Below are positions 493 to 12,167 of a stretch of 13,780 bases of DNA, piece after piece. The stretch is from positions 1-13,780 of the forward strand of contig JAUYMQ010000378.1 in NCBI GenBank assembly GCA_030698575.1. The letters are read 5' to 3'. Under the pieces are notes generated by a model. That model did not search any database. It saw only the letters and a program-made list of their open reading frames with translations, and had not been told where the DNA came from. The DNA comes from Deltaproteobacteria bacterium (lineage in GTDB: Bacteria > JAUYMQ01). The translations under genes were made by a program, and so were the position numbers. Every line of letters starts with the position of its first letter. Position 1 is the first letter of the stretch.

Positions 493-1665
493 CTACTTGA
501 TCCCCGCGTCTGATTTGAGCGTGTCCGCCTTGTCCACCCGCTCCCAGGTGAAGTTCTCTCCCGAGCGGCCGAAGTGGCCGTGGCAGGCGGTTTCGCGATA
601 GATGGGGCGCAGGAGGTCGAGCATTTCGATGATCCCGCGAGGCTTCAGGTCGAAGTGCGTTCGAACGAGCCGGGAAATGTCTTCCTCCGAGACGACGCCC
701 GTGCCGAAGGTGTCGATGGCCACGGAGACGGGCTCCGCCACGCCGATGGCGTAGGCCACCTGGACCTCGCAGCGCTTCGCGAGACCGGCCGCCACGATGT
801 TCTTCGCAACGTAGCGCGCCGCATAGGCGCCGCTCCGGTCGACCTTGGTCGGATCCTTGCCGCTGAAGGCCCCGCCACCGTGCCGTCCCATGCCTCCGTA
901 GGTGTCGACGATGATCTTGCGCCCGGTGAGCCCCGAGTCACCCATGGGCCCGCCGACCACGAAGCGTCCCGTGGGGTTCACGTGATACACGGTGCTGTCG
1001 TCGAGGAATTGCGCCGGGACGGTCTTCTTGATGAGCTTGGTGATGATGGTTTCGCGGATATCGTCGTAGGCAACCCGCTCATCGTGCTGCGTGGAGATGA
1101 CGACCGCGGTCACACGGACGGGGCGGTTGTTCTCGTACTTGATTGAAACCTGGGATTTTCCGTCGGGGCGAAGCCAGCTCACCTCGCCCGAGCGGCGCAG
1201 CTCGGCGAGGCCGGCCACGAGCTGGTGGGCGAGCTGGATCGGAAGCGGCATCAGCTCGGGCGTCTCGTCGCAGGCGTAGCCGAACATCATCCCCTGATCG
1301 CCGGCCCCCTGATCCTTGTGGAGCCCCTCGTTCTCATCCACCCCCTGGGCGATGTCGGGCGACTGCTTGTCGAGCGCCACGAGCACGCCGCAGCTCGCGG
1401 CGTCGAAGCCCATCTCGCTCGAGGTGTAGCCGATGTCCCGGACGGTTTCGCGGACCACATCGGGGATGTCGACCCGGGCGCTGCTGGTGATCTCGCCAGC
1501 CACGACGACGAAGCCGGTCTTGAGGAGAGTCTCGCAGGCCACCCGGCTTCGCGGGTCCTGGGCCAGCATGCTGTCGAGGATGGCGTCGGATATCTGGTCC
1601 GCCATCTTGTCGGGATGCCCCATCGAGACGGACTCGGAGGTAAAAACGAAGTTCTTCGCGGACAT
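493..1665 (-). CDS. metK: S-adenosylmethionine synthetase (methionine adenosyltransferase)
   Basis: Makes S-adenosylmethionine from methionine and ATP, releasing phosphate and pyrophosphate; cytosolic homotetramer in known members. The 390-residue length is usual for bacterial MetK. Visible motifs are GHPDK (16-20) in the N-terminal ATP/methionine site, GAGDQG (120-125), and the glycine-rich [16 protein letters not shown] loop (263-278) that binds the triphosphate. The start is the ATG at 1665-1663, which has GGAG 8 nt upstream and gives the normal MSAKNF N-terminus. The frame stays open 18 codons further up, but those codons are unlike the family and lie in the leader. A sigma-70-like promoter lies about 80 nt upstream, so metK probably heads its own unit with ahcY downstream. 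Confidence 0.97.
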
Positions 1666-1671
1666 GAAGGC

Positions 1672-1715
1672 TGCTCCAGAAGGCCGTCTTCGGGCGGGCC
1701 GGGCCGTTTTGACGG
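1672..1715 (-). promoter_or_regulatory. metK leader stem, loosely resembling a SAM/SAH riboswitch
   Basis: In the metK 5' leader, CCGUC (1715-1711) can pair with GACGG (1688-1684). The loop begins AAAACGGC, and the stretch after the stem contains UGGAGCA, which is also the Shine-Dalgarno region. SAM/SAH riboswitches, known upstream of metK in Rhodobacterales, also combine a short stem, a loop with AACGGC and a 3' GGAGCA, as I recall them. However, the loop here has no good partner for GGAGC, so the required pseudoknot looks poor. An alternative hairpin CCGU-CAAA-ACGG (1715-1704) is possible. Confidence 0.2.
1674..1677 (-). promoter_or_regulatory. Ribosome binding site that fixes the metK start
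   Basis: GGAG on the minus strand, followed by 8 nt and the ATG at 1665. It decides between this start and a longer reading frame that begins at 1719. Confidence 0.6.
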
Positions 1716-1743
1716 GCAAGTCAGCGGAAAATGAGAGTCGGCT

Positions 1744-1771
1744 AGGGTATCAGAGCATCGCGGTTTGTCAA
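1744..1771 (-). promoter_or_regulatory. Sigma-70-like promoter for metK(-ahcY)
   Basis: Perfect -35 hexamer TTGACA (1771-1766), 16-nt spacer, and -10 TACCCT (1749-1744) preceded by TG one base away (extended -10). A start near 1737 would leave a leader of about 70 nt. It begins just after the ptsI stop codon, so metK can be transcribed separately from the PTS genes. Confidence 0.6.
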
Positions 1772-1782
1772 CGTCCGGGAGA

Positions 1783-1792
1783 GCCCTAGGGC
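1783..1792. repeat. 10-bp perfect palindrome over the ptsI stop codon
   Basis: GCCCTAGGGC reads the same on both strands and contains the ptsI TAG. It lies 11 bp upstream of the metK -35 box. No T-run follows it, so it is not an intrinsic terminator. It may be an operator or chance. Confidence 0.3.
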
Positions 1793-3540
1793 AGGACGCC
1801 GGGGAAGCGGCGGTCGGTCTCCTCCTGGAGAAAACCCTTCACCTCCTCCGCCGTCGGCAAGGTCAGGGCCTGCGCAACGATCTCGCGGGCCTCCCTGAGG
1901 GTGGTCCCCCGTACGATCCGCTTGACGCAGGGGATGGCGAGGGAGTTCATCGAAAGCTCGTCCAGGCTGAGCCCGATGAGCATCAGGATGTTCCGGGGGT
2001 CGTTGGCCATCTCGCCGCACATCATCACGGGGATTCCGGCGGCGTGCCCTGCCTCGACCACGCGCTGGATGAGGCGCAGATGTGCCGGGTGAAGCGGCTC
2101 GTAGAGATAGGCGACCTGCTCGTTCCCGCGGTCGACGGCCAGCGTGTACTGGATGAGATCGTTCGTCCCGATGCTGAAGAAATCCACCTCCGGCGCGAGG
2201 AGATCGCTGATCATCGCGCTGCTCGGCGTCTCCACCATGATCCCCACGGGGAGGTCGGGATCGTAGCGCTCCGACCGGGCGTCCAGCTCCTCCCTGACCT
2301 CCGCGAGTATCAGCTTCGCTTCACGAATCTCGCTCACATCGGAGATGAGAGGAAACATGATCCGGGCGCGCCCGTGCGCGCTCGCGCGGAGGATGGCGGC
2401 AAGCTGAGTCTTGAACAGCTCACGCTCCCGGAGGCAGAAGCGCATGGCGCGGAGCCCCAGCGCCGGGTTCGACTCCTGGGAGAGATTGAAGGGGCCGGCA
2501 AACTTGTCGCCGCCCAGGTCGAGCGTGCGAATGACGGCGGGATGGGGCGCCACCCGCTCGACCACCGACCGGTAGATGCGGTAGTGCTCCTCCTCATCCG
2601 GCAGATCGGTCCGGTTCATGTATAGGAACTCGGTCCGGAAGAGCCCCACCCCTGCGCCGCCATGCGCCAGCAAGGAAGGAATCTCCTCGACGAGCTCGAC
2701 GTTTCCCACCAGCCGGAGCTCGTAGCCGTCCCGCGTCTCGGCCGGAAGATCGGTGTACCTGAGCAGTTCCCGCTCCAGCGCGAGATACTCTCCCCGTTGC
2801 TGCCGGCACTGCTCGAGTGTGGCCGGGTCGGGATTGACGCGAACGACCCCCGTGCAGCCATCGACCACGAGAAGGTCGCCCGGCTTGATCAGGCTCGTGG
2901 CGTTCTCGAGCCCGACCACGGCGGGAATCTCGAGGGCGCGCGCGGTGATTGCGGTGTGGGAGGTTTTTCCGCCGGCGTCCGTGACGAAGCCCATCACGAG
3001 TTTCCTGTCGAGCTGCGCCGCATCCGCCGGTGAGAGGTCGTGCGCAACGATGATGATCTCGGTGAGCGATCGCTGGATGGTCTCCTGCTTTTCACCCAAC
3101 AGGTTCCGCATCACGCGATCAGCCACAACCTGGAGATCGGTCCGGCGCTCACGGATGTACTCGTCGTCGATCGCTTTGAAGACATCCATGACGCGATCCA
3201 CGATCATCCGGAGGGCGTGCTCGGCGTTAACCCGGTGCTCGGAGATGTTCCGGCCGGTCTCCTCGAGGATCATGACGTCCTCGAGAATCAGCAGGTGGGC
3301 ATCGAAGATGTGGCTCAGCCCCTCCGGCCCGGAAAATTGCTCCTTCACGCGGAGCAGCTGCTCGCGTGACCGCTCGACCGCTCCCTTGAAGCGGGCGAGT
3401 TCGGATTCGATCCGGTCGGGCTCGATCTCGTAGCGTGGAATGGAGACTTCACGGGAACGGAGGACGTAGGCTTCGCCTATCGCGATGCCCGGCGAGGCAT
3501 CTATCCCGGTCATGATGGTCTGTTTTTCTGCGCTGGTCAT
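1786..3540 (-). CDS. ptsI: PTS enzyme I (phosphoenolpyruvate-protein phosphotransferase)
   Basis: Soluble first enzyme of the phosphotransferase system: it takes phosphate from phosphoenolpyruvate onto a histidine and passes it to HPr. The 584-residue length matches the family (about 570-590). The order is normal: HPr-binding N-terminal domain; phosphohistidine domain with GGKTSHTAI (190-198, active His195); then the PEP-binding barrel with FRTEFLYM (301-308), ETPSSAM (437-443), SIGTNDLIQYT (456-466) and the catalytic Cys508 in MMCGEMA. The ATG at 3540 has only a weak GAG-type ribosome site; ATG codon 10 (3513) is an alternative with no better one. It follows ptsH after 61 nt. No EIIB or EIIC genes are nearby, so its role here is likely to feed a regulatory phosphorelay. 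Confidence 0.97.
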   Translation of the reverse strand: MTSAEKQTIMTGIDASPGIAIGEAYVLRSREVSIPRYEIEPDRIESELARFKGAVERSREQLLRVKEQFSGPEGLSHIFDAHLLILEDVMILEETGRNISEHRVNAEHALRMIVDRVMDVFKAIDDEYIRERRTDLQVVADRVMRNLLGEKQETIQRSLTEIIIVAHDLSPADAAQLDRKLVMGFVTDAGGKTSHTAITARALEIPAVVGLENATSLIKPGDLLVVDGCTGVVRVNPDPATLEQCRQQRGEYLALERELLRYTDLPAETRDGYELRLVGNVELVEEIPSLLAHGGAGVGLFRTEFLYMNRTDLPDEEEHYRIYRSVVERVAPHPAVIRTLDLGGDKFAGPFNLSQESNPALGLRAMRFCLRERELFKTQLAAILRASAHGRARIMFPLISDVSEIREAKLILAEVREELDARSERYDPDLPVGIMVETPSSAMISDLLAPEVDFFSIGTNDLIQYTLAVDRGNEQVAYLYEPLHPAHLRLIQRVVEAGHAAGIPVMMCGEMANDPRNILMLIGLSLDELSMNSLAIPCVKRIVRGTTLREAREIVAQALTLPTAEEVKGFLQEETDRRFPGVLP

Positions 3541-3553
3541 GGAGCTCGCTCGG

Positions 3554-3569
3554 GCGCCTGTTCGGGCGC
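3554..3569 (-). promoter_or_regulatory. Small hairpin upstream of the ptsI start
   Basis: GCGCC and GGCGC flank a six-base loop, 13 nt before the ptsI ATG. It is part of a short repeat in which GCGCCCGA occurs twice, 4 nt apart. The hairpin could influence ptsI translation, since no strong Shine-Dalgarno sequence is visible. It could also be chance. Confidence 0.25.
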
Positions 3570-3601
3570 TCGCTGGGGGAGCTTGCTCGGCAGGGGTCTG
3601 C

Positions 3602-3910
3602 TCACTCCTCTCCGAACTTGTTCTCGATCAACTCGCACAATCGCGCCACGGCGGCGCTCGCTTCGGCCCCGCTGGCGCGCAGCGTCACCTGCGTGCCCTT
3701 GCTGGCCGCGAGAGTGAGAATCCCCATGATGCTCTTGCCGTTCACCTCGTTGCCGTCCCTGGCAAGAAAGATCTCGCACGGAAACCTGGCCGCCGTCTGG
3801 ACGAACAGCGCTGCGGCCCGGGCGTGAAGCCCCAGCTTGTTCTTGATGGTGCAGGTTCTGTTCGTCAGGGAGCCTGCGCCCGCCCCCTCCTGCTCGTGAC
3901 CCGGTTCCAT
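3602..3910 (-). CDS. ptsH: HPr, histidine phosphocarrier protein of the PTS
   Basis: Small cytosolic carrier that takes phosphate from enzyme I and gives it to EIIA proteins. The 102 residues include about 14 extra N-terminal residues compared with a typical 85-90-residue HPr. The active histidine is His29 in LGLHARAA. The second site, NGKSIMGI with Ser60 (equivalent to the usual Ser46), is the target of HPr kinase/phosphorylase, whose gene is in this cluster, so both the PEP-driven and ATP-driven switches look intact. Its ATG shares one base with the stop codon of the upstream EIIA gene (TAATG), indicating translational coupling. ptsI follows after 61 nt. Confidence 0.96.
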   Translation of the reverse strand: MEPGHEQEGAGAGSLTNRTCTIKNKLGLHARAAALFVQTAARFPCEIFLARDGNEVNGKSIMGILTLAASKGTQVTLRASGAEASAAVARLCELIENKFGEE

Positions 3911-4320
3911 TATTTCTTTCCTCGACTGCGCAGGATCTCGCTCGCGATGGAGATGTTCCGCTGGCCGTAGGCCTTGATGAAGGCGGCCAGCTCCTCCAGG
4001 GTTTTCCCTTCGCGGAAGCTCGCGAGTTTGATCAGCATCGGGAGGTTGACCCCGGAGATCACCTCCACCTTCTTCTCGTCGAGGAACGTCAGGCTTATGT
4101 TCGATGGCGTTCCGCCGAACATGTCCGTCAGGATCAGCGCACCCGCGCCCCGGTCGACCTTCTTCAGTCCCGATGCGATCTCGGACCGTATCGCTTCGAC
4201 GTCCTGCGTGGGCCCGATGGAAACCGCCTGAAACCCCTCCACCGGCCCGATGATGAGTTCAAGAGTTTTCAGAAACTCCTGGGCAAGGTCGCAATGGCAA
4301 ACAATGACGACTCCGATCAT
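3910..4320 (-). CDS. PTS EIIA component, mannose/fructose (Man) family, stand-alone
   Basis: Soluble EIIA domain that accepts phosphate from HPr on a histidine. The 136-residue protein is a single domain: a hydrophobic first strand followed by CHCDLA, with His9 as the expected phosphorylation site, and the family motif DMFGGTPSN (66-74). In sugar transporters this domain hands phosphate to EIIB(Man), but no EIIB, EIIC or EIID gene follows. The next gene is ptsH, overlapping by one base. A stand-alone EIIA(Man) beside hprK and rapZ suggests a regulatory acceptor or a phosphate sink. Its target is unknown; mannose import itself is not supported here. Confidence 0.93.
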   Translation of the reverse strand: MIGVVIVCHCDLAQEFLKTLELIIGPVEGFQAVSIGPTQDVEAIRSEIASGLKKVDRGAGALILTDMFGGTPSNISLTFLDEKKVEVISGVNLPMLIKLASFREGKTLEELAAFIKAYGQRNISIASEILRSRGKK

Positions 4321-4358
4321 AAAATTCCCCGAATAGGTTCAGGCCCGGTTGAGCGCGG

Positions 4359-5234
4359 CTAGTGGCGTCCGATGTCCCGGTGATCCACCAGGACGTGATC
4401 GTGGCGCGCCTTCAGGTACTTCTCCAGCTCCCGAACAATGACCACCGAGCGGTGCCGGCCCCCGGTGCAGCCGATGCCGATGGTCAGGTACGCCTTCCCC
4501 TCCTTCTCGTAGAGGGGAACCAGAAAATCGATCAGGTCGAAGAACTTCTCGATAAAGGCTTGTGTTTCCGGCTGCGACAGCACGTAGTCGGTTACCGGCT
4601 GCTCGAGCCCCGTTCGTAAGCGCAACTCTTCCACGAAGTTCGGGTTCGGCAGAAACCGGACGTCGACCGTGAGGTCGGCATGCTCAGGAAGCCCGTTCCG
4701 GTATCCAAAGGAAACGAGCGACAGGGTCATTTTAGTGGCATCCGGGGAGCCGGTAAACAGCCGGTTCACCTCGCGGCGCAGATCGTGCACCGTGAGACTC
4801 GAGGTGTCTAGGATGTGGTCCGACAACCGCCGGACGTCCTCGAGCGCCCGCCGCTCGAGGCGGATGCCATCCAGCACCGTTCCGGTCGGCGTGAGCGGGT
4901 GGCGCCGGCGCGTCTCCTGGAAACGGTGCGTGAGAGCCTCGTCGCCGGCCTCCAGGAACAGCACCTCCACGGGCGTCCCCCCCTCCCGGAGCTGCTTGTG
5001 GATGGCCGGGAACTCCTTCAGGAATTCCCCTTCCCGGACATCGGCCACCAGGCCGACTTTCTGAATGGTCCCCGACTGGCGGCACAGGTCGACAAAAGTG
5101 GTCACCAGGACGAGCGGAAGATTATCGACGCAATAATAGTCCAGATCCTCCAGGACCTTGACGGCTGTCGACTTCCCCGAGCCGGAGAGCCCGCTGATGA
5201 TCACGACCTTTATCGACTGATCACCCGAGATCAT
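4359..5234 (-). CDS. rapZ: RapZ/YvcJ-family P-loop nucleotide-binding protein
   Basis: The 291-residue length is normal for the family. In E. coli RapZ is an RNase E adaptor that binds small RNAs controlling glucosamine-6-phosphate synthase; in other bacteria the role is less clear. Visible features are Walker A GLSGSGKS (15-22), the family motif DYYCVDNLP (about 33-41), and the conserved C-terminal CTGGRHRSV (about 256-264). The end of the protein (VDHRDIGRH) resembles the general family rather than an obviously lysine-rich RNA-binding tail. Its ATG overlaps the hprK stop codon as ATGA, so the two are translationally coupled. The EIIA(Man) gene follows after 38 nt. Whether it binds RNA here is an inference. 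Confidence 0.95.
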   Translation of the reverse strand: MISGDQSIKVVIISGLSGSGKSTAVKVLEDLDYYCVDNLPLVLVTTFVDLCRQSGTIQKVGLVADVREGEFLKEFPAIHKQLREGGTPVEVLFLEAGDEALTHRFQETRRRHPLTPTGTVLDGIRLERRALEDVRRLSDHILDTSSLTVHDLRREVNRLFTGSPDATKMTLSLVSFGYRNGLPEHADLTVDVRFLPNPNFVEELRLRTGLEQPVTDYVLSQPETQAFIEKFFDLIDFLVPLYEKEGKAYLTIGIGCTGGRHRSVVIVRELEKYLKARHDHVLVDHRDIGRH

Positions 5235-6295
5235 GGCTTTCCACGCTTCCTGCCGCGGCCCGATTTCGCCGCCCGCTTGACGCCCCGCCCCCCGGCGGCG
5301 CGCCCTTGCTTGGCGGCCCGCGGGGCAGGCTTCGTCGAGCCATTGTCCGGCATGGCCGGGGTGGCCCGCCTGAGCCGCGTCAGAAGCCGCTCGTTGAACG
5401 TCTGCGCCGACAGCGTCCCTCGCTTCTTGAGAATCTCGTTTCGCGAGGCCACCTCGATGATCGTGGCCAGGTTCCTCCCCGGCTTCACGGGCACGTGAAC
5501 CTTCGGTATCTCGACGTCGAGGAGGACCTCGATATCCGCCTCGAGGCCGGTGCGGTCCGGATTGGGCAGGTCGCCCCAGTCGACGAGATGCACGATCAGA
5601 TCGATCGGCATCCGCTCCCGGGTGGACGTGGCGCCGTAGAGGTCCAGCACGTTGATGATTCCAAGGCCCCGGATCTCCATGTGAAATCCGAGGCTCGAAT
5701 TGGGCATGCCAAGGAGCCGCTTGTGGGCGACCCGGCGGATCTCCACTACGTCGTCGGCAACGAGCCGGTGCCCCCGGGCCACGAGATCGAGCGCAGCCTC
5801 GCTCTTTCCCACGCCGCTCTTCCCCTGCAGCAAAATTCCCAGGCCGAAGACGTCCACGAGCACGCCGTGCACGCGCGTGCGGTCCGCGAGCTTTTCCTCG
5901 AGAAAGCGGGTGAGCCGGCTGACGATGCGGGCTTTGGCCAGGCGCGCGCGAAGAAGGGGGATCTTGCGCGACTCACAGGCCTCGAGCAGAGATCGCGGAG
6001 GCGCGAGGTTGTAGGTAACAATGATGCAGGCAAGCGGCAGGCCGCAGAACTCTTCGATGATCTCGCTGCGCCGCTGCGAGGTGAGCGATTTCAGGTAAGC
6101 AAGTTCGGCCTTCCCGAGCAGCTGCACCCGCTCGGTTTCCATATACGCGCGAAACCCCGCGAGTGCGAGGCCGGGCTCCTGGATCCTGGGAATCGAGATG
6201 ACGTTGGAAAGACCGTCGCGCCCCGCCAGGACGTGGAGCCCGAGGTCCTTGTCGGCCTCATCGAGGATGTCCTGAACCCGCAATTGAGAAGCCAT
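5231..6295 (-). CDS. hprK: HPr kinase/phosphorylase with an extra basic C-terminal tail
   Basis: Bifunctional enzyme that phosphorylates the regulatory serine of HPr with ATP and removes it by phosphorolysis. The N-terminal regulatory domain covers about residues 1-130. The catalytic domain shows His143 in HGVLVDVFG, Walker A GKSGVGKS (158-165), RGHRLVADD (174-182) and the signature EIRGLGIINV (207-216). The length of 354 exceeds the usual 305-330 because the last 35 or so residues are almost only Lys, Arg, Gly, Ala and Pro, resembling a histone H1-like tail. The catalytic core is complete, so the tail is an addition. The gene lies 27 nt after ptsN and overlaps rapZ by ATGA. Its substrate HPr is encoded three genes downstream. 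Confidence 0.96.
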   Translation of the reverse strand: MASQLRVQDILDEADKDLGLHVLAGRDGLSNVISIPRIQEPGLALAGFRAYMETERVQLLGKAELAYLKSLTSQRRSEIIEEFCGLPLACIIVTYNLAPPRSLLEACESRKIPLLRARLAKARIVSRLTRFLEEKLADRTRVHGVLVDVFGLGILLQGKSGVGKSEAALDLVARGHRLVADDVVEIRRVAHKRLLGMPNSSLGFHMEIRGLGIINVLDLYGATSTRERMPIDLIVHLVDWGDLPNPDRTGLEADIEVLLDVEIPKVHVPVKPGRNLATIIEVASRNEILKKRGTLSAQTFNERLLTRLRRATPAMPDNGSTKPAPRAAKQGRAAGGRGVKRAAKSGRGRKRGKP

Positions 6296-6315
6296 CGCCG
6301 CTGTCCGCTCCGATC

Positions 6316-6335
6316 CGCCAGCTCACTGGCTGGCG
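6316..6335 (-). promoter_or_regulatory. Hairpin at the ptsN stop codon, upstream of hprK
   Basis: A perfect 7-bp stem, CGCCAGC with GCTGGCG, encloses a 6-nt loop that contains the ptsN TGA stop. It lies about 20 nt before the hprK ATG. No T-run follows, so it is not a classical terminator. It could mark an RNA processing site or modulate coupling between ptsN and hprK. Confidence 0.4.
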
Positions 6336-6781
6336 TCCCCCTCATCAATGATCGTGAGGATCTCCTCGGCCGTCTCGACCTCGAGCAGGCGCTTCCGGAT
6401 GTCGGCGTCCTTCAGCAGCCGGGAGAGGCGAGCCAGCATTTTCAGGTGATCCCCGACGGAGCCCTCTTGGGCAAGCAGCACGAAGAAGAGCATCGTGGGC
6501 TTCCCGTCCATCGCATCGAAGTCGATCCCTTCGCGGGACCGGCCGAAACCCAGGTGGAGCCGGCTGAGTCCGCGCATTTTGCCGTGCGGGATCGCGATAC
6601 CGTCGCCGATTCCCGTGCTTCCGAGCTTTTCGCGATCGAGCAATACCTGCACGACCCGCTCCGGATCCGAATCGAGGGCGGGCGCCATGGCGGCGCTGAT
6701 CTCCTCCAGAACGCCGCGTTTGTCGCGCCCCGCAAGATTGGGGAGCACCGCCGCCTTGTCGAGAACATCCAGGATTCGCAT
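6323..6781 (-). CDS. ptsN: PTS IIA-like nitrogen-regulatory protein EIIA(Ntr)
   Basis: Soluble regulatory EIIA of the fructose-like family. In proteobacteria it is the end acceptor of the nitrogen PTS and affects potassium transport, nitrogen metabolism and envelope stress. At 152 residues it has the usual length. The active histidine is His66 in GDGIAIPHGK, and the FVLLAQEGSVGDHLKMLARLS region (about 110-130) is typical of PtsN. The start is the ATG at 6781. A GGGAG lies about 12 nt upstream, a rather long spacing. The position downstream of rpoN is the classic one, but a 260-bp gap replaces the hpf gene often found between them. It heads the run ptsN-hprK-rapZ-EIIA-ptsH-ptsI. Confidence 0.95.
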   Translation of the reverse strand: MRILDVLDKAAVLPNLAGRDKRGVLEEISAAMAPALDSDPERVVQVLLDREKLGSTGIGDGIAIPHGKMRGLSRLHLGFGRSREGIDFDAMDGKPTMLFFVLLAQEGSVGDHLKMLARLSRLLKDADIRKRLLEVETAEEILTIIDEGDASQ

Positions 6782-6860
6782 TGGACTATCAGACTCCCGC
6801 CGGTCGCCTCGTTTAGAGCGCGCACCCCGGAGCCGGCCTGTTTCGGGATTGCGCTTGATC

Positions 6861-6889
6861 CTTATAGATAATCGGCAGCCGCCCCGAAA
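6861..6889 (-). promoter_or_regulatory. Weak promoter-like site before ptsN
   Basis: TATAAG (6866-6861) is a 5/6 match to the sigma-70 -10 box in a locally AT-richer patch. Seventeen nt upstream is a poor -35, TTTCGG (6889-6884). If real, it would give ptsN-hprK-rapZ-EIIA-ptsH-ptsI a transcript independent of rpoN. Confidence 0.3.
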
Positions 6890-6964
6890 CCTCGATCTTT
6901 TCCCCGCGGTGTGCCGCCCTCACGAAGAGGGGCTTTGCGCAGGTTCTTCAGGGGTTTGGGGGTT

Positions 6965-7011
6965 CCGGTGCTCGCCGATGCCGTCTCACGGGCCCGGCGA
7001 ACGTCACCCGG
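6965..7011 (-). ncRNA. Candidate structured RNA element: long nested hairpin after rpoN
   Basis: Read on the minus strand, CC and GGTG pair with CACC and GG (one G bulged). Inside are TCGCCG/CGGCGA (7000-6995 with 6977-6972), a 3/3 internal loop, and CCGT/ACGG (6991-6988 with 6984-6981) closed by a GAG loop. That makes about 16 pairs in 47 nt. No T-run follows in either direction, so it is not an intrinsic terminator. It may protect the rpoN 3' end, be a processing site, or be a chance product of GC-rich sequence. Confidence 0.35.
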
Positions 7012-7041
7012 CTGGGGAAAAGGAGCAGAGGGAGACGCGCG

Positions 7042-8466
7042 TCAGTGGGGCGCGGCTTTGCGCTTCGTGCTGGAAAGAATGCCGAGAATCTCGCGATACT
7101 TCGTCACGGTACGGCGGGCGATCTCGATGTCGCTCTTCTTCAGGATCTCGACGATCTTCTGGTCGCTCAGGGGCCGCTTGGAGCTTTCCGCGACAATGAT
7201 CCTCCGGATCTTGTCCTTCACCGCCTCGGACGCCATGTGTTCGCCGCCCGTGAGATTGATTCCGCTGTTGAAGAAGTACTTCAGCTCGTAGATCCCCTGG
7301 GGCGTATGGACGTATTTGTTCGTCGTGACCCGGCTGATGGTGGACTCGTGCATGCCGATGTCGTCCGCCACGTCGCGAAGATTCAGCGGCTTCAGCAGGT
7401 TGATCCCCTTGTCGAAGAAGTCCCGCTGGAACTTCACGATCGACTCCATCACCTTGTAGATCGTCCGCTGGCGCTGATGGATCGACTTGATCAGCCACAC
7501 CGCCGACCTGAGCTTCTCCTGGATGTATTCCTTCGTGACCTTGCTCGTGCTCGAATTGCCGTGGAGGACGTCCCGGTAGAACGGGCTTATCCGGAGCTTG
7601 GGCATCCCGTCTTCGTTCAGGACGATGACGTAGTCCTCACCCACCTTGTGCAGGTAGATGTCAGGGGTGATGTAGAAAGGTTCCTGCTCGGAGAAGGGGC
7701 GGCCGGGCTTGGGCTCCAGCCCCTGGATGACCCTGGCCGCCTCGACGACCTTCTCGACGGGAACAGCCAGTGATTTCGCGATGCCGCGGTAGTCCGCGCG
7801 CTCCATGCGGGATAAGTGCCCACTCACGATATTCTCAACGAGAGAGCCCCGCAGACCGATTGGACCCAGCTGTAAGAGCAGGCACTCCTTCAGATCACGC
7901 GCCGCAACCCCGAGGGGATCGAACTCCTGCACGCGCCGCAACACTTCCTCGACCGCCGCCACATCAGCGTCCGCCACCTCGGCGATGTGCTCCAGCGTCT
8001 CCTCCAGGTAGCCGTCCTCGTTCAGGTTGCCGATGATGAGCGCGCCGATGGTCTGCTGGTCTTCGCCCAGATTCGACATCTTGAGCTGCCACATGACGTG
8101 GTCGGAGAGGCTGGCTTTCTTGACGAGGGTGCTTTCGAGCGAGGGGCGATCTGATTCGATATCGGCGGGCTTGTATCCGATGGAGGAGTAAGTGTCGAGG
8201 TAGCTGTCCCAGTCGATGTCGGGCAGCTTTTGTTCCGCTTCCGGCGCGACGTTGTCGGCGCCCAGCTCGATCGACTCCTTCTTGGTCTGCGCCTCGTCCT
8301 CGTAGTCCGGGGCGTCTTCGAGGATGGGGTTTTCCTGAAGCTCGGCTGAGACGAGATCGACCAGCTCCATCCGGTTGAGCTGGAGGAGCCTGATGGCTTG
8401 CTGCAGCTGGGGCGTCATCACCAGCTGCTGCGTGAGTTTCAGGCTCTGTTTGATCTCAAGCGCCAT
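7042..8466 (-). CDS. rpoN: RNA polymerase sigma-54 factor
   Basis: Alternative sigma factor that directs RNA polymerase to -24/-12 promoters and needs an ATP-driven activator. The length of 474 residues is normal. Region I is the glutamine- and leucine-rich N-terminus (about 1-48) bound by activators. An acidic region II follows (about 50-92). The core-binding and DNA-binding domains come next, and the diagnostic RpoN box ARRTVTKYRE is at 450-459 near the C-terminus. The start is the ATG at 8466; the ribosome site is weak. It follows lptB after 82 nt, the usual lptB-rpoN order, so it is probably transcribed from the promoter in front of lptC. Confidence 0.98.
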   Translation of the reverse strand: MALEIKQSLKLTQQLVMTPQLQQAIRLLQLNRMELVDLVSAELQENPILEDAPDYEDEAQTKKESIELGADNVAPEAEQKLPDIDWDSYLDTYSSIGYKPADIESDRPSLESTLVKKASLSDHVMWQLKMSNLGEDQQTIGALIIGNLNEDGYLEETLEHIAEVADADVAAVEEVLRRVQEFDPLGVAARDLKECLLLQLGPIGLRGSLVENIVSGHLSRMERADYRGIAKSLAVPVEKVVEAARVIQGLEPKPGRPFSEQEPFYITPDIYLHKVGEDYVIVLNEDGMPKLRISPFYRDVLHGNSSTSKVTKEYIQEKLRSAVWLIKSIHQRQRTIYKVMESIVKFQRDFFDKGINLLKPLNLRDVADDIGMHESTISRVTTNKYVHTPQGIYELKYFFNSGINLTGGEHMASEAVKDKIRRIIVAESSKRPLSDQKIVEILKKSDIEIARRTVTKYREILGILSSTKRKAAPH

Positions 8467-8548: not shown

Positions 8549-9271
8549 CTACAAAGTGAAATCGTGGCCCAGATAAATCTCCCGTGCCTTGGGACTGCTC
8601 GCAATGCGCTCCGGCTCACCCTCTTCGACGATCTTGCCGTCCGCGATGATGTAGGCCTTGTCACACACCTTCAGGGTGTCGCGCACGTTGTGGTCAGAGA
8701 TCAGGACCCCGATTCCCCGCGACTTCAGCTGCGCGATGATCCGCTTGATGTCGGCCACCGCCAGCGGATCGATCCCCGCAAAGGGCTCGTCGAGGAGCAT
8801 GAAGCGCGGCGAGATGACCAGTGCCCGCGTTATCTCGAGGCGCCTTCGCTCACCGCCCGAAAGACTGAAGGCCATGTTGCGCCGGAGCGGCGTGAGATCC
8901 AGTTCCTCCAGGAGCATCTCGAGGCGCCGCTTCCGCTCACTCGTTTTGATCGGGAGCGTCTCGAGAATGGCTTTTATGTTGTCCTCCACCGAGAGCTTCC
9001 GGAAAACCGACGGCTCCTGGGGGAGGTAGGTGATCCCCTGGCGCGCCCGCTTGTACATGGGCTCCTGGGTGATGTCCCTGTCGCCGAGAAAAACCTGGCC
9101 GGCGTCCGGCTTCATCAGTCCCACCACCATGTAGAAGCTGGTGGTCTTTCCCGCGCCGTTGGGGCCGAGCAGGCCGACGACCTCGCCCCCCTTCACCGCG
9201 AAGCCCACGTCGTTCACGACGCGGCGGCCGCCGAAGCTCTTGCACAGCCCTCTCGCGGCGATGTAGCTCAT
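8549..9271 (-). CDS. lptB: LPS export ABC transporter ATP-binding protein
   Basis: Cytoplasmic ATPase of the LptB2FGC complex, which extracts lipopolysaccharide from the inner membrane and pushes it across the periplasm. The 240-residue length is exactly typical. Walker A is GPNGAGKTT (36-44), the Q-loop glutamine is Q85, the ABC signature is LSGGE (137-141), Walker B ends in DEP (161-163) and the switch histidine is His194. FAGIDP after Walker B and the LGHDF-type C-terminus are characteristic of LptB. The ATG overlaps the lptA stop as ATGA, so the two are translationally coupled. rpoN follows. Confidence 0.97.
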
Positions 9272-10368
9272 GGGCTAGTTACCCCCGTCCCCGATCGCGC
9301 GGCGGCTGCGCCGCCCCCCTGGTCGAGAGTCTGCATGCCCTGGGGGCTGATCGTGACCGTTGCCTGGCGGACGGTGAAGCGGTTGTCTTCCAGGTAGACG
9401 CTGATCTTGTCGCCGAGCACCGTGTCAGAGCCCCGCTTGACGACCGGATCACCCGTCAGGTCGATTCTTCCCTCCGCGCTGTAGTAGATCCCTTGATCGC
9501 AAGTCGCAGTGATCTTCTCGGAGGCGTTCCCGCCCTTGCCGTCGCCCTCGTGAATGATCCGCACGTTCCGGTCGGCGATGATCTTGTTGATGCCCTTGCC
9601 GTCCGAGGAGTAGAGCACCGTCATGACGTCGCAGTAGATCCGCAGCCTGCCCTGCTTCGCCTCGACGTTTCCGCGGAAAACCACGGTATTTCGCTTGTTA
9701 ATCGCCTCCAGCGTGTCCGATGTGATGGCGATCGGCGTCCTGTTGTCCCGAACCCTGAGACCGAGGGGGTCCTTCACCCCCGAATCTCCCGTCGCCCCCG
9801 CTCTGGCGCGGCTATTAGAAGAATCGGCCGCCCCGCCGGAAACTTGACCCTCCCCTGTGTCGCCCCCGGATATCGCTTCCGGCGCTGCCGGCTCCAGGCT
9901 ACGGCCGACCTCGGCCGCCAGATTGGGAAGCTTCCCGATCAGATCCTCCCGGCCCGCGCCCTCGCGGAAGAAGGCCGCCTTTGATTTGCCGTCATCCGGG
10001 TCGTACAGCCGTGCATCGAAGCTGTAGGTGCCCCCGAGCTGCGTCAGGCTGCCATAGAGCACGTAGGTCGCTCCGGCCCCGGCCGCCGTTTTCCCGAGCG
10101 CCTCGTTCGTGAGCGGACTGGAAGCCGCATCCTCCGCCCCCTCCGGCGCCGTCACCGCAACGAACCCCTGCAGGTCGTCCAGCGCGTCCGCGAGCTTCGC
10201 GCGAACTTCCTTCGCGGCGGACTGGAGCGTCGGCAGACTGCCGTGCACCTCCAGGGGCGCCACGGCTATCTTGATGTCCCCCTGGATGCCCCGGGCAGGT
10301 CCCGGAATGAAAAACGTTGCCAATAGGGCGAGTACGATCGCCCCTCCCCCCCCACGCTTCGTTCTCAT
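9268..10368 (-). CDS. lptA: Periplasmic LPS-transport protein LptA fused to an N-terminal TolB-N/CsgG-like domain
   Basis: LptA forms the periplasmic bridge that carries lipopolysaccharide from LptC to LptD. The 366 residues are about twice the usual 170-200. An N-terminal signal peptide is likely (basic MRTKR, hydrophobic core to about residue 22, cleavage near 27-30). Residues 31-157 form a domain with [10 protein letters not shown] and [15 protein letters not shown]...FDARLYD, the pattern of TolB N-terminal/CsgG-like domains. A low-complexity Gly/Ser/Ala linker follows (158-205). Residues 210-345 are the OstA/LptA repeat domain ([49 protein letters not shown]). The gene lies between lptC (one-base TGATG overlap) and lptB (ATGA overlap), confirming the LptA role. 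The extra domain's function is unknown. Confidence 0.9.
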
Positions 10369-10919
10369 CAGTTCCCCGTCGCCCGGACCTGGTTCAGCAG
10401 CTCGACGGTCTCTCTCTCGACATCGACCGTCATGCCAATCCCCTCGGTCTCGAACCCGCTGCCGACGATCTTGACCGGATCGCCAGTCGTGATTTCACGT
10501 TTCTCGTAGGTGTACTTCAGTGTGGATGTGAAGAATTCGAGCCCATCGCTCGACCGGCCCCGAATGTCACCAGCGGCCGTCATGTCGCGTGTGTCCGTGT
10601 CCAGCTCCCCGCTGTTGCTGTACAGATGCATCTCCCGCCCGTCCCTCGCAAAGAAGGTGATGTGAACGCCTTCGAAGGCCGCGCGGTTCTTGTCCTTGAA
10701 GAGCCGGGCGGTGCGGGATTGCACCACCCAGTTGCGCTTCCCCTGGCGGCTGTCGACGAACTTCACGTTCGTCATGACCATGTCCGCCTTGGGCAGCTGA
10801 AGGGTCGCCTTTCGATCTTCCTGGCGCTCGCCCTCGCCCACGTTGCGGAGAAGCGAGAAGGCGATGGAGCCCACGGTGAAGACCAAAAGGAAGGAGAGCA
10901 GGGTCGTCAGCCGCCTCAC
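10368..10919 (-). CDS. lptC: LPS export periplasmic protein LptC, membrane anchored
   Basis: Bitopic inner-membrane protein that receives lipopolysaccharide from LptB2FG and passes it to LptA. It has one N-terminal membrane segment (about residues 4-24) and then a periplasmic beta-jellyroll domain with ADMVMTNVKFVD, WVVQSRTARLF and SGELDTDTRDMTAAGDIRG, a typical LptC layout at about 183 residues. Three GTG codons stand in a row (10925-10917). The third is chosen because GGAG lies 7 nt before it; starting at the first would add two valines. Its stop overlaps the lptA ATG by one base. It is the first gene after the promoter region at 11060-11089. Confidence 0.92.
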   Translation of the reverse strand: MRRLTTLLSFLLVFTVGSIAFSLLRNVGEGERQEDRKATLQLPKADMVMTNVKFVDSRQGKRNWVVQSRTARLFKDKNRAAFEGVHITFFARDGREMHLYSNSGELDTDTRDMTAAGDIRGRSSDGLEFFTSTLKYTYEKREITTGDPVKIVGSGFETEGIGMTVDVERETVELLNQVRATGN

Positions 10920-11006
10920 CACCACTCTCCCGAACGTCGAAGGGGAAAAGGGCCGTTTATTACCGCCGGCCGCATTTCGTGCTTCCGATGGCCCATGATC
11001 TGAACG

Positions 11007-11180: not shown

Positions 11181-12167
11181 TTAACGTGTCGCTCCGACGG
11201 CCCGCGGCCCCGGCGCCGCGGACTGGGCCTCGTCCGGCGGGCGCCGACGCCAGCGGCGGTGCATCCAGACCCACTGCTCCGGCACGCGCCGGATCTGCGC
11301 CTCGATTCTCCGCGTGAACTCCGCTGTCGCCAGCCTCTGATCCGCTTCGGGGTCGCCGGTTTGTGGAAGCTCGACCGGCCCCGAGTAAATGATGCGGTGC
11401 CGCCCGTCGGGCAGCCGCTCGATGAATCCCACGATCACCGGCGCATCCATCCGGTAGGCAAGAGACGCGGCCGCGACCGGCGTGTTCGCGGGCTTCCCGA
11501 AGAAATCCACGAACACGCTCTGAACCTTCGTGTCCTGATCGATCAGCATCGCGAGCACTTCGTTCTGCCGGAACGCGCGAATGAGGTCGCGGATGGAGCG
11601 CGCGTCGCCGCGCTCGACTGTCCGGACGCCGTTTTCGGCCCGGATACCCACGAGTATCTCCTGCATCCGCCGGTCGTAGGCGTGCCGCGAGATCGCGTTG
11701 ACCTTGTAGTGCTGGTAGCGCGCGAAGTAGGAGGCGAGGATCTCCCAGTTTCCGAGGTGACCCGTGACCCAGATGAGCCCCTTGCCGCCTTCCAGGCAGC
11801 GGTCGATCCCGGCGCGATCCTGCAGCTCGACGTAGGTATCGAGGCGGTCCCACATCTTCCGGAAGTTGGCGAGTTCGACGAAGTTCAGCGCGAGGTGGAC
11901 GAAGCTCCGCCGGGCGATGCGCCGGCGCTCCGAAGGGGTTTTCTCGCCCCCGAAGGCGATCTCGAGATGGCGGAGCGCCTTCGCGCGCTCCGGCCAGAGC
12001 AGGTAGTAGGCCAGGTTCCCCGCCACCCGGCCGAGCGCCATGCCGACCCGGATCGGAAGCAGGCGCAGCGCGCCGAGCACCCCGCGGAACCCCAGGAAGA
12101 TCAGCTCGTTCCTGCCGCGCTTGATCGCGCGCCGCAGCCGACGGGGGAGGAAGCGCCGCCTAGCCAA
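11181..12167 (-). CDS. lpxL: Lysophospholipid/lipid A acyltransferase of the LpxL/HtrB family
   Basis: Inner-membrane enzyme that adds a secondary acyl chain to lipid A precursors (or, in some relatives, acylates other lipids). The 328-residue length fits the family. The N-terminus is very basic, followed by a hydrophobic anchor (about 22-57). The catalytic HX4E motif is HLGNWE (137-142) after VTG, and the C-terminal EQWVWMHRRW (about residues 294-303) is characteristic. The start codon is TTG (12167-12165), with a strong GGAGG 6 nt upstream and no in-frame ATG nearby. The gene overlaps the preceding peptidase gene by 8 nt, implying coupled translation. It is followed by the lpt operon, which exports its likely product. 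Which acyl position it modifies cannot be told. Confidence 0.9.
   Translation of the reverse strand: MARRRFLPRRLRRAIKRGRNELIFLGFRGVLGALRLLPIRVGMALGRVAGNLAYYLLWPERAKALRHLEIAFGGEKTPSERRRIARRSFVHLALNFVELANFRKMWDRLDTYVELQDRAGIDRCLEGGKGLIWVTGHLGNWEILASYFARYQHYKVNAISRHAYDRRMQEILVGIRAENGVRTVERGDARSIRDLIRAFRQNEVLAMLIDQDTKVQSVFVDFFGKPANTPVAAASLAYRMDAPVIVGFIERLPDGRHRIIYSGPVELPQTGDPEADQRLATAEFTRRIEAQIRRVPEQWVWMHRRWRRRPPDEAQSAAPGPRAVGATR

Follow-up and report, generated by a model that had tools for sequence, protein, structure and literature searches.

The window (the whole 13,780-nt stretch of DNA analysed here) encodes an LptA with an extra N-terminal domain of the TolB-N/CsgG/FlgT-M type, and the BamA of the same genome carries the same domain at its mature N-terminus. 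LptA ferries lipopolysaccharide (LPS) through the periplasm, whereas BamA assembles outer-membrane proteins; the sharing hints at a possible physical coupling of these two assembly lines in this bacterial group. How LPS export is matched to the insertion of outer-membrane proteins is still poorly understood, and the known links are mainly the folding of LptD by BAM. A domain common to LptA and BamA, taken with BamD proteins that bear an LptA-like domain, offers a concrete case in which Bam-Lpt coupling, covalent or through a domain, can be tested.

The operon LptA and its extra domain

The lptA ORF occupies 9268-10368 on the minus strand and encodes 366 aa. The N-terminus is signal-like (residues 1-27; 10288..10368, minus strand), as read directly from the translation rather than from a predictor, and there is no Cys in this signal region that could form a CsgG-type lipobox. 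The extra domain follows at residues 28-165 (9874..10287, minus strand), then a Gly/Ala/Ser linker at residues 166-208 (9745..9873, minus strand), evident as low complexity in the translation and as low pLDDT, and then the LptA/OstA domain at residues 209-345 (9334..9744, minus strand). Pfam matches LptA/OstA (PF03968) to residues 215-328 with E 4e-17 (62.8 bits, cut-off 20.4). The NCBIfam LptA model (TIGR03002) matches residues 208-336 with E 5e-18, its 65.4 bits falling just below the equivalog cut-off of 71.7. In a full-length AF2 model the OstA domain was beta-rich, with pLDDT mostly 75-93; the N-domain was not resolved in that model because the alignment rows span OstA alone.

Gene order on the minus strand of the window is lipid A acyltransferase (HtrB/LpxL type; 11181..12167; PF03279, 3e-49), lptC (10368..10925; TIGR04409, 1e-28; PF06835, 7e-22), lptA, the lptB ATPase gene (8549..9271; PF00005, 1e-33) and rpoN (7042..8466; assigned to RpoN by reading the ORF sequence), followed by a PTS-type cluster. 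From 493 to 8466, all on the minus strand, the genes after rpoN read as ptsN, hprK, rapZ, EIIA, HPr, ptsI and metK. The start of lptA shares 1 nt with the lptC stop (TGATG) and its stop shares 4 nt with the lptB start (ATGA). Third-position GC is 84% in the extra domain and 87% in OstA. Because of these overlaps and the similar third positions of the two domains, lptA reads as a single coding sequence. Nor does the fusion show any sign of being an assembly chimera, since an identical domain layout occurs at this place in the operon in seven other genomes (see below). The gene is the LptA of the cell's lptC-lptA-lptB-rpoN operon, with an added N-terminal module.

The preliminary description had proposed a TolB-N/CsgG-like domain here, and the predicted structure bears this out. 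AF2 was run on residues 28-165 (~138 residues) as a single sequence, with no alignment; two of five models were good, and the best had pLDDT 83 and pTM 0.79. Structure comparisons by Foldseek and VIA-align matched it to the FlgT middle domain (Z 14.2), PelC (Z 12.7), TolB domain 1 (Z 12.3–12.5 over ~119–128 residues; for 1crz, Z 12.3 over 128 residues at 3.2 Å), CsgG (Z 11.4) and LpoB (Z 9.2). These solved relatives of the fold act at the outer membrane or in the envelope. The model contains the alpha/beta core only and lacks the membrane hairpins of CsgG, and LptA has OstA in place of a TolB-type C-terminal beta-propeller. Sequence matches were fainter. The NCBIfam TolB model touches LptA residues 27-128 (E 9e-4, under its curated cut-off), and a PDB sequence search gave weak hits to FlgT (E 0.12) and LpoB (E 1.1). 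An alignment of 11 sequences shows conserved core residues P11, G79, S89 and D91 (numbered within the domain). Judged by its model, the extra domain shares the TolB-D1-type fold while falling outside PF04052 (TolB_N), which scores it at 12.1 bits, below the 22.4 gathering cut-off.

The same domain on BamA and other envelope proteins

When the six-frame translation of the 4.1-Mb genome was searched with LptA, the sole other match at E ≤ 1e-3 was the N-terminus of BamA (E 4e-5), which aligned with LptA residues 31-166. This BamA is a frame of ~1,100 aa whose N-domain precedes POTRA domains, with a C-terminus of the Omp85 type; its gene adjoins a gene for a LolD-like ATPase, near an LpxA-like gene. 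Compared pairwise, the two N-domains gave E 3e-8 at ~22% identity, and comparison of their profiles gave a probability of 99.6 and E 1e-23, a likeness that by these scores exceeds chance. The domain stands in front of the POTRA domains at the mature N-terminus of BamA, the end farthest from the membrane. The preliminary description placed such a domain on BamA in some deltaproteobacteria, and the BamA of the window's own genome has it. The true TolB is encoded elsewhere in this genome (contig C267). A further TolB-N-like protein of this genome stands alone and begins with a signal-like segment (L227:966-1817, plus strand, contig C346).

We placed the window genome by its MetK, for which the nearest genome was G309 (68%). 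In a MetK tree it fell into a supported cluster (98/88) with G309, G399, G411 and two genomes that were sampled from outside the phylum of G309. From gene order, our guess is that this phylum is Desulfobacterota. A sample of 247 genomes from that phylum contained 242 with LptA matches. The N-domain fusion was present in only seven of the 247, five from family f293 and one each from f332 and f326, all at lptC-lptA-lptB-rpoN loci with an rpoN homologue after lptB in every case. Linkers in these seven are longer than the ~43 residues of the window protein, and often acidic or proline-rich. Typical LptAs seen lack the extra domain, with frames of about 150–250 aa. Across a broader set of 386 genomes from the whole domain of life (including G170, G309 and G023 of the same phylum), comparison of listed match coordinates revealed no further LptA match behind a match of the domain. 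The LptA fusion is recurrent but rare.

It had been left possible that the fusion would prove common and already described. Neither was found: its frequency is the 7/247 above, and searches of the open-licence literature yielded no description of it or of the BamD-LptA fusions treated below. The passages matched by term in the 2014 Omp85 survey (PMC4104836) and in PMC3359395 describe neither fusion, and those of the former mention no TolB-N-type domain on BamA.

In all seven other fusion genomes a POTRA-containing frame of BamA size bears the domain as well, making 8/8 with the window genome; three of these BamA N-termini were read directly (L215-L217). This co-occurrence is suggestive, the count being uncorrected for kinship and representing about 3–4 lineages. 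The BamA N-domain is itself more widespread: counting listed matches that span the N-domain and the first POTRA, at least 114 of 247 phylum genomes have it.

The domain also precedes FG-GAP repeats in many genomes of the phylum, including in proteins of ~540–600 aa. Its occurrence on FG-GAP proteins and in the stand-alone protein marks it as a promiscuous module of the envelope, one that is not restricted to the Bam and Lpt machineries. Proteins of ~530–630 aa with a TolB-N-like domain before FG-GAP or beta-propeller-like repeats are common in the phylum (L114, L130-L142, L144-L150), FG-GAP being assigned by Pfam for L114, with similar C-termini in others.

LptA has been elaborated in other ways too. 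An LptA in G023 (L008:1444-2694, minus strand) has two N-terminal SH3-like repeats, one matched by Pfam SH3_3 just below cut-off, and the BamA of G023 carries the TolB-N-like domain. An LptA in G204 (L046) has a C-terminal SPOR-like tail, read by eye, and those of G072 and G344 (L041, L045) are tandem OstA-OstA proteins.

Three trees were used to ask whether the LptA fusion arose once. In the MetK tree the window sits with G309, G399 and G411, apart from f293 and f332. The N-domain tree groups all LptA N-domains, weakly (81/50), with the window domain on a very long branch (4.1 changes per site). The OstA tree puts the fusions in three places with weak support, the window being ungrouped with f293/f332. 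The trees of the N-domain and of OstA are compatible with either a shared or a separate origin of the window fusion and those of f293, f332 and f326.

BamD-OstA fusions

A different joining of BAM and LPT-like parts was found in 26 genomes of seven families (f267, f311, f283, f279, f300, f268 and f272): a single ORF in which a linker runs from the BamD/YfiO lipoprotein to an LptA-like OstA domain at the C-terminus (L053, L058, L059, L061, L063, L066, L071, L084, L086, L087, L090, L091, L093, L095, L096, L098, L100, L101, L103, L104 and L106-L111). The domains were confirmed by Pfam on three of the proteins. These families demonstrate that BAM and LPT-like parts are joined by different means, and theirs is possibly a more surprising finding than the LptA fusion.

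In each of the 26 genomes the fusion protein is the only strong YfiO match (95–148 bits). Some of them also have weaker YfiO matches of near 50 bits, possibly YbgF-like; Anwari et al. 2012 (PMC3359395) report that their BamD model cross-hits YbgF weakly. We rejected the BamD-OstA protein as the cell's LptA in five genomes, where a separate plain LptA is present in the lpt operon. That check took in f267 (twice), f300, f272 and f268 and was positive in 5/5; because of the separate LptA, the fusion in these five is BamD with an extra LptA-like tail. For 23 of the 26 genomes the BamA N-domain was not among the listed matches, so that the two types of fusion seldom share a genome. The f279 proteins (L090, L091, L106) have a further C-terminal NTF2-like domain, identified as Cds6_C by Pfam in L091 and by eye in the others.

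Possible roles of the shared domain

The leading explanation, which we hold tentatively, is that the extra domain tethers LptA to the BAM site, directly or through a shared partner. It leads because the same domain is on BamA and because BamD-OstA fusions exist in other families. The recurrence of the LptA fusion at one operon position, its 8/8 co-occurrence with the BamA N-domain and the envelope roles of the solved fold relatives also count in its favour. The module, an alpha/beta domain of the TolB-D1/CsgG/FlgT-M type on a flexible linker to the LPS-carrying OstA domain, would hold LptA near the site where BamA is also held, whether by putative binding to the BAM complex itself or to one partner common to LptA and BamA. 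The LPS bridge would thus form at sites of outer-membrane protein insertion. Established Lpt models orient LptA with its N-terminal end towards LptC and its C-terminal end towards LptD; a linker-borne N-terminal module need not disturb this bridge and could reach a neighbour. Against the tether stand the presence of the domain on FG-GAP and stand-alone proteins, the identity of only ~22% between the LptA and BamA domains, the position of the BamA domain far from the membrane, the co-occurrence count being uncorrected for phylogeny, and the rarity of the BamA N-domain among the BamD-OstA genomes.

The preliminary description had suggested a shared docking module linking LPS transport to envelope assembly. 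The sharing with BamA and the existence of BamD-OstA are consistent with that suggestion; the domain, being also on FG-GAP and stand-alone proteins, is not confined to these two machineries. That LptA and BamA dock via a common module (directly or with a shared partner), coupling LPS delivery to outer-membrane protein assembly, and that the BamD-LptA-like families reached the same coupling otherwise, seems to us possible, with less assurance than the tether itself.

Ranking close behind the tether, and nearly as likely, is a general envelope-localisation module that binds a BAM-unrelated partner (such as Tol-Pal, peptidoglycan or some other protein of the outer membrane) and was gained independently by BamA, LptA and FG-GAP proteins, with no Bam-Lpt coupling. 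The wide occurrence of the domain on FG-GAP proteins and in other frames fits such a module, as does the same fold in domain 1 of true TolB, and the separation of the window LptA from the f293/f332 fusions on the weakly supported OstA tree fits repeated capture. However, LptA fusions were seen only where BamA has the domain (8/8), and the LptA N-domains tend, if weakly, to group.

We think it unlikely that the N-domain self-associates into rings or stacks, organising LptA bridges or gating their length. The best matches of the fold include CsgG and PelC, which forms dodecamers, but the window LptA shows no Cys for a lipid anchor, and the domains of this fold in TolB and LpoB do not form rings. 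That the fusion is degenerate or neutral to selection, or that it is an artefact of annotation, is most improbable, already disfavoured by recurrence in three other families. The very long branch of the window domain would suit it; the core residues conserved across 11 sequences, the tight overlaps with lptC and lptB, the coding-like third positions and the confident fold from a single sequence would not.

The window protein has the same OstA domain and lptC-lptA-lptB-rpoN operon as LptA (YhbN/OstA), the periplasmic bridge of LPS export, with an N-terminus that reads as a Sec-type signal, and differs from the usual LptA in the ~138-aa TolB-N-like domain and linker added in front. With BamA proteins bearing the N-terminal TolB-N-like domain it shares that domain at the mature N-terminus; BamA continues with POTRA domains and an Omp85 barrel, LptA with OstA. 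TolB domain 1 (PF04052) has a common fold with the extra domain, which in LptA lacks the following beta-propeller. The FlgT-M/PelC/CsgG/LpoB group likewise has this fold; the window LptA has no lipobox Cys in its signal region, and its domain is tethered within a transport protein. Finally, both the window LptA and BamD-OstA join a BAM part or domain to an LptA-like domain, the latter with the BamD lipoprotein in front.
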